9,306 nucleotides of DNA from Deltaproteobacteria bacterium. Lineage in GTDB: Bacteria; Desulfobacterota; Desulfobacteria; C00003060; C00003106. Under the pieces are notes generated by a model. The model made no database searches, had not been told where the DNA came from, and was given only the letters and a program-made list of their open reading frames with translations. The position numbers were made by a program, and so were the translations under genes. The DNA lies in NCBI GenBank assembly GCA_019314005.1, contig JAFDAE010000065.1, positions 1 to 9,306 on the forward strand, given 5' to 3'. This document shows positions 4,661-9,306 of this stretch, in pieces (within the stretch, counting starts at the first letter, position 1; the number at the start of each line of letters is the position of its first letter).

Positions 4661-6398
4661 ATTCCAACTCTTCTTCTATCTCCTGCCAGCGATACATATT
4701 GCTGTAAAATCCTTCCCGGCTCATCAGTTCTTCATGGGTTCCGGAGTCAGTGATTCGACCCTCTTCAAGCACTATAATCAAATCGGCATGGCGAACGTGG
4801 TTTAGTCTATGAGAGACCATTACTGTTGTCAGTTTTGGAGAAAGATTCCTTATAGAGGCAAGAATGGCCGCGGCAGTATCGGTATCCACCTGGCTCAGGG
4901 AGTCATCGAGGACCATAATAGGCGCTGACACAAGAAAAGCCCTTGCCAGGGCAAGACGCTGCCGTTGTCCGCCTGAAAGCGTAACCCCTTTTTCGCCGAT
5001 TAGTGTATCAAATCGATCAGTGAACCCCATAATAGTTTCATAAAAGCCGGCTGCGCGAGCAGCTTTTATAATCTCTTCCTCTGAAGCATCGTCTCTGCCG
5101 AAACAGAGGTTCTCACGGACAGTTCCGGAAAAAAGAAAGGCATCCTGCGGGACTACTACTGTGTGGGATCGGAGTGTATGAAGCGATATCTTGCGCACAT
5201 CAATTCCGTCGATCAGGATACGCCCACTCGTTGTGTCTACAAGTCTCGGGATAAGGTGACAAAGCGTGGTCTTACCGCTCCCCGTGGGTCCCACCACTCC
5301 GAGAGTCCGGCCTGATTCCAGTGAAAAGGCAATGTTGGAAAGTACGTACGGCATATCCTGATTATACCTGAAACTTACCTCATCAAAGACTATATCTCCC
5401 TTAAGGGTTTCAGCAGTGCAAGGTTCTTCGGGGCTTTGGATATCAGACTTTGTTTCAAGAACTGCGTTTATCCTGTCTAAAGACGCCGCCCCCCGTTGTA
5501 TCAGATTTACGACCCATCCCATAGCCATCATGGGCCATGTGAGAAGGCCCAGGTAACTTATGAAGGCAACGAAATCACCAGGCGTAATGGTAAAGGTGAT
5601 AGTCTGCCGCCCCCCCAGATAGAGCACTATGGCCACACTCATACTGGAAAAAAACATCATGCCTGGAGAAATAAAGCCGGTAAGCCTGACCAGCCGCAGA
5701 TTTTTTGCCAGATAGTCTCTCGAAACATCAGAAAGTCTCTTCGCTTGCATCGCCTCGCGATTATACGCCTTAATTACGCGGATGCCGGCGAAACATTCTC
5801 GTGCGACCTCGGTCATATCAGAAAATGAGGCCTGCACCTCTTTGTATCGACGGTGCATCCTCCGGCTCAAAACCCGGGTAAAGAAAACAATTATAGGCAT
5901 GGGCAAGAGCGCAAAGAGCGTCAGTGTAACATTGATGTAGAGCATAAATCCTATAGTGGCGATACCCAAAACCACGGCATCCATGAGCGCCACCATTCCC
6001 ATGCCCACAGCCATCCGCACGTTCTGTATATCATTGGTGGAGCGGGCCATCAGGTCACCGGTTTTGGTTTGGTCAAAATAGGCCGGGGAAAGTGTCTGTA
6101 TATGGGAAAAGAGCTGGTTTCTTAAGCCCTCCTCTACCCTCCGTGAGGTTCCCAGGAGACAGCGTCGCCAGACAAAGCGAAACAGTCCGATCAAGAGAGC
6201 TATTCCGACAATGTAAAAGGCATAACGAAGCAGTCCCGGAGCTGCTACAATACCGATTGTGAGATCATCAACCGCCCATTTGATAATGCGGGGGATAAGG
6301 AGCTGAAGGACGTCAACGAGGAGGAGAGAAAAAAGGCCGACTGCAATAATAGCCTTGTGTTCTACAAAGGAGGATTTGAGAAGGCGATATGATTTCAT
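4650..6398 (-). CDS. ABC exporter half-transporter with degenerate Walker B (heterodimer subunit A)
   Basis: From ATG 6398 this is a 582-residue exporter half of the YheI/BmrC/MdlA class, with a six-helix membrane domain (about 15-310) and an ATPase domain (about 335-575). It has Walker A GPTGSGKTT (370-378), Q-loop in VVPQD, canonical signature LSGGQRQ (474-480) and H-loop His530. The residue after the Walker B Asp is Asp499 (VLDDS) instead of Glu, so its own ATP site should be weakly or non-hydrolytic. This complements the partner, which keeps Glu but has a poor signature. The start is uncertain: a TTG at 6452 is in frame and would add 18 residues, and a stop at 6462-6464 limits the frame. 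The family N-terminus (M-K-S-Y-R-L-L) favours ATG 6398, although neither start has a strong Shine-Dalgarno. Confidence 0.93.
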   Translation of the reverse strand: MKSYRLLKSSFVEHKAIIAVGLFSLLLVDVLQLLIPRIIKWAVDDLTIGIVAAPGLLRYAFYIVGIALLIGLFRFVWRRCLLGTSRRVEEGLRNQLFSHIQTLSPAYFDQTKTGDLMARSTNDIQNVRMAVGMGMVALMDAVVLGIATIGFMLYINVTLTLFALLPMPIIVFFTRVLSRRMHRRYKEVQASFSDMTEVARECFAGIRVIKAYNREAMQAKRLSDVSRDYLAKNLRLVRLTGFISPGMMFFSSMSVAIVLYLGGRQTITFTITPGDFVAFISYLGLLTWPMMAMGWVVNLIQRGAASLDRINAVLETKSDIQSPEEPCTAETLKGDIVFDEVSFRYNQDMPYVLSNIAFSLESGRTLGVVGPTGSGKTTLCHLIPRLVDTTSGRILIDGIDVRKISLHTLRSHTVVVPQDAFLFSGTVRENLCFGRDDASEEEIIKAARAAGFYETIMGFTDRFDTLIGEKGVTLSGGQRQRLALARAFLVSAPIMVLDDSLSQVDTDTAAAILASIRNLSPKLTTVMVSHRLNHVRHADLIIVLEEGRITDSGTHEELMSREGFYSNMYRWQEIEEELEYEN

Positions 6399-6486
6399 AC
6401 CAGGGGCCCCAATCGGGGGGAAATCGAAGCATGATAGTGACCGATCTTCCAAATAGCGGTGTTATTCCGGTTCCTTGTTATGTTCG

Positions 6487-6495
6487 ATTTTATCA
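6487..6495 (-). promoter_or_regulatory. Possible extended -10 promoter for the ABC exporter operon
   Basis: The minus strand reads TGATAAAAT at 6495-6487, an extended -10 box (TGnTAAAAT, five of six to TATAAT). No good -35 lies 17 bases upstream. It would start transcription near 6480, about 80 bases before ATG 6398 and about 28 before TTG 6452. This is only the best candidate in an otherwise featureless 280-bp intergenic region (6399-6679). Confidence 0.3.
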
Positions 6496-6648
6496 AGGCA
6501 GGGATGATTTTTATAGACAAGTTGCTCCTTTTTCTTACAATAAAGAGCTTGAAATGTACGGCACGAACCAGACCCGTCGACTGACCCCTCTTCAGGCCAT
6601 GACGCATGCGCACATCGCATATCACAGAACTGCAATTATTTACTCCTT

Positions 6649-6668
6649 GAGACCTTTGCAAAGGTCTC
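6649..6668. repeat. 20-bp perfect palindrome built from two abutted GAGACCTTTGCA repeat ends
   Basis: GAGACCTTTGCAAAGGTCTC is perfectly self-complementary. Each half is the first ten bases of the terminal repeat of the element at 2547-2688, and the repeat identity runs to 12 bases because the two ends overlap by four bases at the centre. It looks like an element whose interior was lost, or a head-to-head fusion of two ends. It lies 11 bases beyond the PilZ stop codon. As RNA it would form a strong hairpin, but no T-run follows on either strand, so it is not a standard terminator. Confidence 0.8.
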
Positions 6669-6679
6669 TTCATCAATAC

Positions 6680-6994
6680 TTACTCTAACATTTCCTTTAA
6701 GATGTGATCCCACCACGTCACAGGACCTGTATTGAACTCCTCAAACTCAATGCCTATCATGTATGTTTGTCCAACCTGTTTAATCCAAGCGACCCTCCCC
6801 TTTGTCCTGATCGGGACGTGAGAATGGACGATTATATCCAAGAGAGTCCCTATCTCCCACGACTCACTGCATTTAATCATCAGGCCGCCGGGGCTTGCAT
6901 TGTATACGAACTCTTTTATAAATTTCTTGCCATCAGAGAGAGTGATATACAAGAGGCTGTACCCCCGGTGATATCCCCTCTTTTCTTCGTCCAT
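6680..6994 (-). CDS. Single-domain PilZ protein (c-di-GMP receptor)
   Basis: This 104-residue protein is almost entirely one PilZ domain. The two c-di-GMP-binding motifs are intact: R-x-x-x-R as R6-G-Y-H-R10, and (D/N)-x-S-x-x-G as N32-A-S-P-G-G37. The closing strand block (G-R-V-A-W-I-K, then M-I-G-I-E-F) is also typical. It should bind c-di-GMP in the cytoplasm and pass the signal to a protein partner, for example in motility, exopolysaccharide or pilus control. The target is not visible. ATG 6994 is chosen over an in-frame TTG at 7000 because GGAG at 7006-7003 lies 8 bases from the ATG but only 2 from the TTG. The gene stands alone, with its own promoter, and is bracketed by GAGACC repeats at 6649-6668 and 7093-7114. 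The cyclase gene earlier in the window is a plausible source of its ligand. Confidence 0.93.
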   Translation of the reverse strand: MDEEKRGYHRGYSLLYITLSDGKKFIKEFVYNASPGGLMIKCSESWEIGTLLDIIVHSHVPIRTKGRVAWIKQVGQTYMIGIEFEEFNTGPVTWWDHILKEMLE

Positions 6995-7039
6995 GGACAA
7001 CGCTCCTTTTGCTGATAAGGAAAGGCATTAGTATGTTAG

Positions 7040-7068
7040 AGTATAGATCATAGCGAGATGTTATTCAA
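7040..7068 (-). promoter_or_regulatory. Sigma70-type promoter of the PilZ gene
   Basis: On the minus strand, TTGAAT (7068-7063) is followed after exactly 17 bases by TATACT (7045-7040). That matches TTGACA/TATAAT at four and five of six positions. Transcription would begin near 7033, giving a leader of about 40 bases with the AAAAGGAG ribosome site. It lies wholly between the repeat end at 7093-7114 and the gene. Confidence 0.6.
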
Positions 7069-7092
7069 GCTTTTCATATAGCTTTCTTTCAT

Positions 7093-7114
7093 ATGGCAGT
7101 TATGCAAAGGTCTC
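7093..7114. repeat. Solo 22-bp repeat end of the GAGACC family
   Basis: These 22 bases are an exact reverse-complement copy of the left end of the MITE-like element (2547-2568). Identity stops there, so this is a solo or heavily truncated end. Its last two bases, with A7115, form the TGA stop of the DUF166-like gene on the minus strand. Together with the palindrome at 6649-6668, it brackets the PilZ gene in inverted orientation. Confidence 0.85.
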
Positions 7115-7769
7115 ATAATGCGAGCGCGCGTTTAAACGCCGCTGCGTGGATCTTGCCTGCAAAATGCACCGGACTTTTCCCGTAAATCGGATCCCAGCCC
7201 GAAGGGTCCGCTACACAGAAGAGTTGTGCTTCAAGACCAATACGCACCGCGGCTTCCTCCGTGGTCAGCCCCACCACACGTGTTGCTGCATCCCAGGTGG
7301 CGCCGCAAGGGGCCCCTCGCAGTATCGTAACACGGTCCACCCTTCCGTCAGCGACCTCTACAGTAAATTCCGGCGAACCAAATCGTTCTCCGTAGCGGCC
7401 CAGGCAGACCTGCCTGGCAAGACCGCATCAGGTCGGAGGAGTCAGAACTCCTTTCATTGGCGTTTTTTTCCCTGAGGCGACCACGGGAATATTTCTTTCG
7501 CGGCATGCAATAGCAAGGTCATGAGACAGGTCTGGATGTTTCAAAAAATCGAGAACGAGATCTGCCCGGATCTCACGGGGCAAATAGAGTGTTGTATCGT
7601 CCACAACATGTGGCAACGATATGTCAATCGATATAATTTCCAGGCCAAACAGGTCCCCCCCATATTTTTTAATACCCCGTATCTTTTTTTCGCCGCTCCT
7701 GTTTTGTTGAAAAACAAGAATTTTTTGGGGGACGTGCGCTTGTTCCTGCACAAAGCTATTGCAATGCAT
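7113..7769 (-). CDS. DUF166-like selenoprotein with in-frame TGA (Sec114)
   Basis: Two open segments (7769-7431 and 7427-7113) lie in the same frame, split only by TGA at 7430-7428. Read through, they give 218 residues covering the whole DUF166 pattern as I recall it. This starts with strand K-I-L-V-F (16-20) and contains L-V-L-D-F-L-K-H-P-D-L (71-81). Next come the P-P-T-U-C motif (111-115), R-Y-G-E-R-F-G-S-P-E (125-134), L-R-G-A-P-C-G-A-T-W (150-159) and V-H-F-A-G-K-I-H near the end. The TGA falls where a Cys pair would be expected, giving U114-C115. A hairpin matching the E. coli SECIS tip follows it. Other Cys are C122, C155 and C185. Reaction and substrate are unknown; the Sec-Cys pair suggests redox or metal chemistry. 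ATG 7769 follows AAGGA by 5 bases and lies downstream of a -10 box, which excludes the ATGs at 7790 and 7799. A nonsense mutation is the alternative, but both halves are otherwise intact. Confidence 0.82.
7400..7417 (-). promoter_or_regulatory. Bacterial SECIS-like hairpin
   Basis: On the minus strand, 10 bases after the TGA, CCAGGCA (7417-7411) pairs perfectly with TGCCTGG (7406-7400) around the four-base loop GGTC (7410-7407). The tip GCA-GGUC-UGC is, from memory, identical to that of E. coli fdhF mRNA, and the loop begins 17 bases after TGA, about one base from the fdhF distance. The bulged U in the fdhF stem is missing. It should bind SelB and deliver Sec-tRNA. Confidence 0.78.
7428..7430 (-). 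other. Selenocysteine codon (TGA) in the DUF166-like gene
   Basis: This in-frame TGA lies between Thr113 and Cys115 of the reconstructed protein. The coding sequence continues without any frame change or further stop to the real TGA at 7115-7113, and the conserved motifs after it are intact. Confidence 0.78.
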
Positions 7770-7797
7770 TGTCTTCCTTATGTTATTCATAATCCGC

Positions 7798-7827
7798 ATT
7801 ATATACGTACCTGGCTGCGGAAGTCCA
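7798..7827 (-). promoter_or_regulatory. Probable promoter of the DUF166-like selenoprotein gene
   Basis: The minus strand carries a perfect TATAAT at 7803-7798. The best -35 is TGGACT (7827-7822; four of six to TTGACA) with an 18-base spacer. The start site would be near 7791, about 22 bases before ATG 7769, which supports that start codon. The rest of the 203-bp intergenic stretch (7770-7972) holds only a weak hairpin (ATACG-5T-CGTAT, 7859-7873) without a T-run in the right place for a terminator. Confidence 0.5.
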
Positions 7828-7972
7828 TATTTTTCTCATTTTCAAAATGTTACTTCTGATACGTTTTTCGTATATATTCTACGGGATTGGTCATCAACCT
7901 CGATCTTACACTGAAACAGGAAGAATATCAGGCAGAGGAGTTGGAAGACTGGTCAAAGGACATATAGGAGCT

Positions 7973-9306
7973 TTATCGATTAAGGTTCCAGTCGTAGTAA
8001 ATGTACTCAAACTTAAGCGATTCGGCGTTGTTCCGGATGAATTGCCGGGATTCTGTGTCATGCAGATAGTCATAAAGGAAATCCACAACGCCGCGTCGTC
8101 CGCCAAAGTCGGGTTCATACCAGCGGAAGATCTCAGATAAGAGTATCTTGTTCTCTTCAGGAAGGACGATCACTTCTGAAGAATTTACGAAGCTCCCGGC
8201 AGCATCCTCAAGCTGGTCATAAATCGTAGCTGCGTCATAACAGTCGATAGGAGCACAGGACCGAGAGCCGCACACCAGGGTGAAGTGAATACGGGGATCC
8301 ACAGGCTTGAGCATAAAGGACTTGCGAGGGTTTCCGGGACCAAATTGTCGTAGCGGACTAAACCAGGGGCGAGTGTTAGCGCGCAGGATCCCGTGTTCGA
8401 TGTCGTCGGCGGAGAAAAGGTAACCCCCGATACCGTACTTCACGCGCCTAAAGAAGCGAGGGATTTCCTGAACCGATTGAGTAATGCCGAGAGACGCAAT
8501 ACCGTCGACCACAATACTGTTATAAAGGTTCACCCAAAAGGCCAGCTTTTGCCGACGTCCTACGAGACGGGACAGACGGAATCCCCGTAAACCATTGGTA
8601 AGAATTCGGTAGTCCTGGTACTCGGCAGACTCTCGGAGCGCCTGGTAGTCTACCCGGCCCCTCGTGGTATCGTAAAAGGAGTTCCGCAATGCCCGAATGG
8701 CCCGCATGAGAGCGCCCGCAAGGTTGTCGGGTGCGATATCAGGCATTATGTTTCCCTTGTTTAAGACCACATCAGAGGTGAAGAGACCGCGCACCTTGGC
8801 GGTTACCCGCCTCGATATTTTCTCGCTTTCGTAAAATTCATGCACCAGGTCGATAAACAGGGCTGCCGTCCAGCTGAAGTTGTCGCTTCCGTATCCCGTG
8901 CCATCGAAGGAATCAAAGTACTCGTGAAAGCCGAAGCGTATAGGGAGCTGTAAGAGATCCTTTTGCAGAGAGTCGGCCTTCAGGGTATATCCGTAGCGGC
9001 GGAGGCCCTGGGCGAGCATCCAGTTGATATTGAGCCATACGGGTCCGCGCCAGTAGTTGGCGCGGTCAAAATCCCGGCTCTGGGTGTCGTAGTTAGGAAC
9101 AGTGAAACAGTTGCCTTGGTTAAGGGCACAAAATGAGGCAGAATCAAGATGCTGGTAGAGGCTTTCGGCCTGCTCGCGGCTTGCCGCTCCGGCAAAGAGC
9201 GGCAGAAAACCTGCGGCGGTATCTACCTCGATGGTGTCATCGGCCACCAGGTCGTATGCATCAAATATTTTATGTTCGGGGTGCCACAGCTTTCGCCGCA
9301 TGGATG
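7973..9306 (-). CDS. Glycoside hydrolase (GH63/MGH1-like) C-terminal part fused to DUF547; N-terminus outside window
   Basis: The frame is open to the window edge (9306). The ATG at 9301 is not a believable start, because the sequence opens in the middle of a hydrolase domain. Numbering from 9301 there are 442 residues. Residues 1-160 match the end of an (alpha/alpha)6-barrel hydrolase of the GH63/mannosylglycerate-hydrolase-like group. It has N-Y-W-R-G-P-V-W-L-N-I-N-W (82-94) and F-H-E-Y-F-D-S-x-D-G-x-G-Y-G (124-137), where E126 is the likely general base, and F-S-W-T-A-A-L. Residues about 190-440 are a DUF547 domain: L-A-F-W-V-N-L-Y-N (253-261), H-x-I-L-R (303-307), I-H-F-T-L-V-C-G-S-R-S-C-A-P (338-351) and the I-F-R-W-Y-x-x-D-F-G-G block (391-401). 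It probably acts on an alpha-linked glucoside or mannoside storage or solute sugar. The role of DUF547 is not known. Both domain calls are from motif memory. Confidence 0.88.
   Translation of the reverse strand, partial: SMRRKLWHPEHKIFDAYDLVADDTIEVDTAAGFLPLFAGAASREQAESLYQHLDSASFCALNQGNCFTVPNYDTQSRDFDRANYWRGPVWLNINWMLAQGLRRYGYTLKADSLQKDLLQLPIRFGFHEYFDSFDGTGYGSDNFSWTAALFIDLVHEFYESEKISRRVTAKVRGLFTSDVVLNKGNIMPDIAPDNLAGALMRAIRALRNSFYDTTRGRVDYQALRESAEYQDYRILTNGLRGFRLSRLVGRRQKLAFWVNLYNSIVVDGIASLGITQSVQEIPRFFRRVKYGIGGYLFSADDIEHGILRANTRPWFSPLRQFGPGNPRKSFMLKPVDPRIHFTLVCGSRSCAPIDCYDAATIYDQLEDAAGSFVNSSEVIVLPEENKILLSEIFRWYEPDFGGRRGVVDFLYDYLHDTESRQFIRNNAESLKFEYIYYDWNLNR

Follow-up and report, generated by a model that had tools for sequence, protein, structure and literature searches.

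DUF166 proteins are already counted among the selenoproteins. In the tables of two reviews DUF166 appears among the selenoprotein families, with Zhang & Gladyshev 2007 as the source, and the DUF166 member of the Olavius algarvensis delta symbiont, which belongs to the same domain family as the gene described here, is entered as a selenoprotein (PMC9312934, PMC13188914); a list in a 2021 paper places a selenocysteine (Sec)-containing 'DUF 166' in a marine deltaproteobacterium (PMC8318568). The NCBIfam model NF041372 is named 'DUF166 family (seleno)protein DfsP' (DUF166_seleno), a name that gives no function, and neither DfsP nor the wider DUF166 family is assigned a function in the family models or the literature searched. 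Some records still name DUF166 proteins thymidylate synthase, a label rejected here, as there was no PDB sequence match up to an E value of 10 and no match to a thymidylate synthase family.

Here we examine a dfsP gene in a 9,306 nt stretch of DNA (the window; contig JAFDAE010000065.1 of assembly GCA_019314005.1) from a member of the Desulfobacterota. It is matched over its whole length by NF041372, its relatives have TGA or a Cys codon at the same position, and it differs in nothing of substance from that family, of which it is a new member. A preliminary description of this DNA, made from the sequence alone, took it for an undescribed selenoprotein and knew of no Sec-containing DUF166 protein; since NF041372, the two reviews and the 2021 paper all name such proteins, neither statement holds, and selenoprotein status itself is not new. 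What is new is operon, fusion and motif evidence that points to a part for DUF166 in the assembly or maturation of metal-cluster enzymes in anaerobic carbon metabolism, above all carbon monoxide dehydrogenase/acetyl-CoA synthase (CODH/ACS). The reading that best explains the whole, a DUF166 selenoprotein acting in metallocluster scaffolding or maturation, has in our estimate a probability of roughly 0.55.

The in-frame TGA of dfsP

The gene lies on the minus strand at 7113..7769, coordinates that the preliminary description gave correctly, though without a strand. When TGA is read as U, the minus-strand frame from 7799 to 7113 is open except for one internal TGA (7428..7430). Translation from the ATG at 7769, which is preceded by a Shine-Dalgarno-like AAGGAAG at 7779-7773 with the AGGA core five bases ahead of the ATG, yields a protein of 218 aa with Sec at residue 114. 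An alternative in-frame ATG at 7799-7797 yields 228 aa with Sec at 124, and residue numbers are counted from this start unless stated otherwise. The Sec site has the motif PPT-U-CG (...TPPT-U-CGLARQVCLGRYGERFG...). The terminal codon is also TGA (7113..7115) and coincides with the end of the NF041372 profile, which is matched from 1 to 202 of its 203 positions (327.3 bits, cut-off 200). Membership of DUF166, as earlier supposed, is confirmed by a Pfam PF02593 score of 143.8 bits against a gathering cut-off of 24.4, and the parts before and after the TGA match PF02593 separately (43.5 and 96.2 bits). With the frame open but for the TGA and each half matching the same family, the two halves are one protein, again as proposed.

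The homologue set comprised the best 80 of 122 encoding stretches from a scan of a genome collection which, with the window, made 81 loci; the titles of the homologues name Desulfobacterota or Deltaproteobacteria-type organisms, one of them only 'Proteobacteria'. The codon at position 124 is TGA in 66 of the 81, TGC in 12 and TGT in three, and nothing else occurs. All 81 loci, window included, thus have TGA or a Cys codon at the proposed Sec residue (114 in the shorter protein), and in the 15 Cys loci this residue is the first of a Cys pair, as the preliminary description had it. Between the window and one homologous locus (L001), dN is 0.162 and dS 0.86 before the TGA, and dN is 0.142 and dS 0.76 after it, while four more distant pairs have dS of at least 1.69, partly infinite, and dN of 0.20-0.25 on both sides. 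dN/dS is equally low on the two sides relative to L001, and these rates indicate purifying selection on both. The standard code breaks the gene into two open reading frames (ORFs), as would be expected if there were two genes here, or a pseudogene, or an error in sequencing (TGC or TGT misread as TGA), but the same TGA in 66/81 loci with a conserved hairpin, together with the selection on either side of it, makes all of these very improbable. With the PF02593 matches to the halves added, a pseudogene or split genes are rejected.

The hairpin, CCAGGCA-GGTC-TGCCTGG, has 7 bp and starts 10 bases after the TGA (7400..7417, minus strand), and a possible lower stem of five pairs (7422-7426 with 7395-7399) would lengthen it; its fold has a minimum free energy of -19.9 kcal/mol (z -2.4), with 2/200 shuffles as good. 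A TGA followed after 8-14 nt by seven mismatch-free pairs (G-U allowed) enclosing a loop that starts with GG occurs once in the window, at the dfsP TGA. When the whole window was dinucleotide-shuffled, 35/200 shuffles had any such site on one strand or the other (mean 0.2 sites); hence the hairpin alone is only mildly unusual, and suggestive rather than proof. It is more than chance because PF02593 matches each half of the protein and because Sec homologues retain the hairpin while Cys homologues have mostly lost it. At least six of the seven pairs form in 61/66 TGA genes against 2/15 Cys genes, and 412/462 cells are paired in the former against 61/105 in the latter, while the loop is GGTC in 32/66 TGA genes. 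For the 66-row hairpin alignment (62 rows distinct), the percentage paired, the doubly changed cells and the covariation score all exceed the 500 shuffles and the six slid controls. Pairs with a double change and further pair types, the two remaining measures, do not exceed the shuffles, the loop-adjacent pair (columns 20/25) is unpaired in 22/62 rows and pair 16/29 in 15/62. An Rfam scan of the window with E values up to 10 returned no selenocysteine insertion sequence (SECIS) family, and one weak lncRNA match far away. Conservation together with the TGA bears out the earlier identification of a bacterial SECIS element.

SelA was matched in 46 of 51 genomes of relatives with the TGA form, 45 of them over the cut-off (12/14 genomes by PF03841 and 34/37 further genomes by TIGR00474, including one fragment below cut-off), and was unmatched in G001, G014, G429, G450 and G455. 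SelB scored over the cut-off in 27/28 genomes of both forms, including all 14 with the TGA form. A tRNA-Sec of at least 69 bits, a cut of our own choosing (the Rfam gathering score is 47), is present in 13/14 TGA-form genomes, the miss being a metagenome-assembled genome of 1.7 Mb, and in 8/14 Cys-form genomes. SelB and tRNA-Sec would insert Sec at the TGA.

Decoding of the TGA as Trp, as in a code-4 genome, was also considered. Trp stands at this site in some public predicted proteins (3/153 DfsP or Cys-type rows, also P0002), which fits gene callers using code 4. However, the gene terminates with TGA where the family ends, from which it follows that TGA is not globally reassigned in this genome, and homologues with a sense codon carry only Cys (15/81), a SECIS element is present and relatives have sel genes. 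Trp is rejected on the terminal TGA and the Cys homologues, and we give it next to no credence. In P0002 and two other rows from public protein sets, the W at the Sec position apparently stems from gene calling with TGA as Trp. Comparison across the loci shows, at the level of sequence, that selection maintains the TGA as a sense codon, that only Cys codons take its place and that a conserved SECIS element comes after it; with purifying selection on both sides, the reading of this TGA as Sec stands, and we regard it as almost certain.

A quick tree was built from 78 Sec, 23 Cys and seven canonical DUF166 rows. It contains several long branches and its details are unsure, and on it the Sec/Cys label needs eight changes, at least three of which are forced by well-supported branches; Sec and Cys have therefore interconverted several times. 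Two observations on the machinery stand apart. Genome G014, titled a complete chromosome (locus L061), has a TGA-form dfsP, a 75.9-bit tRNA-Sec and SelB, and no SelA match with PF03841 or TIGR00474. In locus L150 (G006:C1:1446000-1465500), a divergent second selB (5915-7996) lies directly downstream of a second tRNA-Sec gene (7890-7981, anticodon TCA), both on the minus strand. The same genome has a standard selB and tRNA-Sec as well, and some 7 kb from the divergent selB is a Cys-type copy of DUF166, between HdrA-type genes. A divergent selB with a tRNA-Sec-like match nearby was also found in G018, G021 and G024, and G024 has no other selB over the cut-off.

Conserved residues and gene neighbourhoods

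Residues were surveyed in 270 rows, 117 canonical and 153 of DfsP or Cys type, with Sec written as Cys. Cys125 (codon 7425..7427), Cys165 in an APCG motif (7305..7307) and Cys195 (7215..7217), all on the minus strand as are the codons that follow, are Cys in 270/270 rows; Asp203 is conserved in 269 and His212 (7164..7166) in 267. Residue 124 is Phe in 115 and Leu in two of the canonical rows, and Cys in 150/153 of the others, the remaining three having W, which is likely the reading of TGA by gene callers. Thus, Sec124 is a selenol added directly before an old invariant Cys. The DfsP and Cys-type rows are further marked by Cys99 (147/153) and His218 (153/153). The three invariant Cys and the nearly invariant His, all in the C-terminal domain, probably form a metal or cluster site, perhaps laid out like that of IscU, and the N-terminal Rossmann-like domain is probably where a partner or a nucleotide docks.

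The neighbourhoods of canonical DUF166 genes were read in 18 loci. Six (L145, L146, L175, L176, L177 and L188) lie in an archaeal-type acetyl-CoA decarbonylase/synthase (ACDS) operon, with CdhA ending 9 bp upstream of DUF166 in five (L188 is cut by a contig end) and CdhB downstream in all six; genes were Pfam-scanned in L145 and assigned by similarity in the others. With formate-tetrahydrofolate ligase, FolD and MTHFR also present, L145 amounts to a Wood-Ljungdahl cluster. Five further loci (L148, L149, L178, L179 and L180; Pfam-scanned in L148, the other four assigned by similarity of 59-86 %) have AcsB, a CdhD/E protein, RACo, a MinD/CooC-like ATPase and then DUF166 on one strand, with the ATPase 12-27 bp from DUF166. 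Of the six ACDS loci, five have a relative of this ATPase (38-40 %) on the same strand, 4.2-4.4 kb off. In another five (L141-L144 and L174; scanned in L143), DUF166 lies between a SufBD-core protein and an FMN-reductase/LMWPc protein, and in L147 and L181 none of the labelled genes was found in the DNA read. Three proteins (P0231, P0233 and P0234) are natural fusions of DUF166 to a NuoE-type [2Fe-2S] domain (PF01257). Among 395 sampled genomes of the phylum, DUF166 is present in 83 (82 over the cut-off; 25 with an internal TGA) and the ACS domain PF19436 in 255; ACS occurs in 76/83 genomes with DUF166 against 179/312 without it (Fisher P 5e-10, uncorrected for kinship).

These contexts could also be those of a small subunit of the CODH/ACS, Hdr and formate dehydrogenase complexes that carries Zn or Fe-S and has a structural or electron-transfer role, as the position between CdhA and CdhB or, in L150, between HdrA-type genes, and the NuoE fusions would allow. 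But the five SufBD-associated loci are without labelled CODH/ACS, FDH or HdrA genes in the DNA read, in five others DUF166 comes straight after a CooC-like ATPase where an ACS operon ends, which is typically the place of maturation genes, and most DfsP loci have no partner subunit among the labelled genes, and we consider such a subunit role quite improbable. For a scaffold or maturation role of DUF166 we see about even chances. On this account, DUF166 proteins would be scaffold or maturation factors for metalloclusters (Fe-S, possibly Ni-Fe-S), with the Cys3-His site binding the metal or cluster and canonical members serving CODH/ACS or SUF assembly. No printed proposal of a metal-cluster assembly role for DUF166 was found in the open-licence literature covered, in searches that the spelling 'DUF 166' escapes.

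DfsP genes have different neighbours. Among 61 fetched DfsP loci with at least 3.3 kb upstream, FdhA precedes dfsP on the same strand in 13 (11 with TGA-form and two with TGC-form dfsP), usually in the order NuoE-NuoF-FdhA-small protein-DfsP. All 13 fdhA genes carry TGA at their own Sec site, and the FdhA of L062 scores 843 bits against TIGR01591. An unnamed protein of about 128 aa is encoded directly upstream of dfsP in 15 loci (e.g. L043:5618-5998 and L062:5560-5952), after fdhA where that is present; two members scanned had no Pfam or NCBIfam match at an E value of 0.001. The labelled gene set showed no CdhA, CdhC or SufBD in the vicinity of DfsP, and the neighbours of the Cys-type group (MreB, Fe-ADH and FolE2) indicate no clear function. 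A DUF3786 protein starts 1.3-3.6 kb after the dfsP TGA or Cys codon in 11 loci, including L043 (8785-9600), where domains were scanned and it has the FeS domain PF04060, a kind also found in CdhE.

Within the scaffold or maturation reading, DfsP would be a derived branch that has Sec (or Cys) in place of the Phe or Leu directly before the first cluster Cys, the selenol of Sec124 would either ligate the bound cluster or metal or drive persulfide or redox chemistry in its transfer, and formate dehydrogenase and related Fe-S complexes would probably be the recipients. Redox catalysis is the usual task of Sec, and DfsP might instead be a stand-alone thiol or selenol oxidoreductase, in which Sec124 pairs with Cys125 or with Cys99, which is specific to DfsP, to reduce disulfides, peroxides or some other small substrate, the likeness to a scaffold being merely ancestral. 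The Cys99 and His218 marks, at positions where canonical proteins mostly have V/I/A and I/T/V/L, would fit this, as would an opposite-strand rubrerythrin ORF that in 11/81 loci starts 360-415 bp beyond the TGA. However, the three cluster-type Cys and the His remain conserved in DfsP and 13/61 DfsP genes follow a Sec-FdhA gene, and we hold the oxidoreductase to be unlikely. How the clusters of CODH/ACS, an ancient enzyme of carbon fixation, are assembled is understood only in part. If DfsP does place selenocysteine next to the cysteine of a cluster scaffold, this would be an unusual use of selenium, and one that is directly testable.

Surroundings of dfsP in the window

The gene context in the window says nothing about the function of dfsP, which is flanked by a glycoside-hydrolase/DUF547 gene on one side and a PilZ gene on the other. 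The former is an ORF (7973-9304, minus strand), open at the window edge, in which the end of an MGH1-like glycoside hydrolase is joined to a DUF547 domain. Perfect 23 nt inverted copies (ATGGCAGTTATGCAAAGGTCTCA) lie at 2546-2568 and 7093-7115, the second overlapping the dfsP stop codon, and related TGCAAAGGTCTCT pieces at 2677 and 6657.

Comparison with known systems

A fold search with the full-length model was dominated by generic Rossmann-like matches, and the C-terminal domain (residues 118-228; 7113..7448, minus strand) was therefore refolded alone; this stretch takes in the stop codon, which appears in the models as an additional Cys. Its predicted fold is CutM-like or IscU/SufU-like. 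The C-terminal domain of CutM, the medium chain of CO dehydrogenase, which was compared by fold alone, ranks first in Foldseek and has the highest VIA Z (7.0-7.3 over 96-99 residues, five entries). The longest run of top Foldseek matches to the isolated domain model is to IscU/SufU/NifU_N (PF01592), with which the predicted fold would share a strand hairpin, then a Cys, then a helix, as well as the three Cys. PF01592 was also the best of 27 profiles in hhalign (P 0.0089), with a probability of 4.5 % and the Cys about three columns off. The Pfam scan of the protein listed no PF01592 match up to an E value of 1, and DfsP is for this reason not filed as an IscU. True kinship of DUF166 with IscU is thus a tentative proposal that we lean slightly against, and that DUF166 is an unrecognised IscU-type scaffold for CODH/ACS and other anaerobic Fe-S/Ni or Mo enzymes, with DfsP a selenocysteine-based cluster scaffold whose Sec, adjacent to the first cluster Cys, ligates or handles the cluster as it forms, seems rather doubtful.

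A further comparison is with canonical DUF166 (PF02593), which is the same family with the same layout. Cys125, Cys165 and Cys195 are common to both, and His212 nearly so. They differ in the residue before the first Cys, which is Phe or Leu in 117/117 canonical rows and Sec or Cys in DfsP, in Cys99 and His218 of the DfsP type, which are absent from the commonest letters at those positions in canonical rows, and in the CODH/ACS or SUF neighbourhoods that surround the canonical genes in 16/18 loci.
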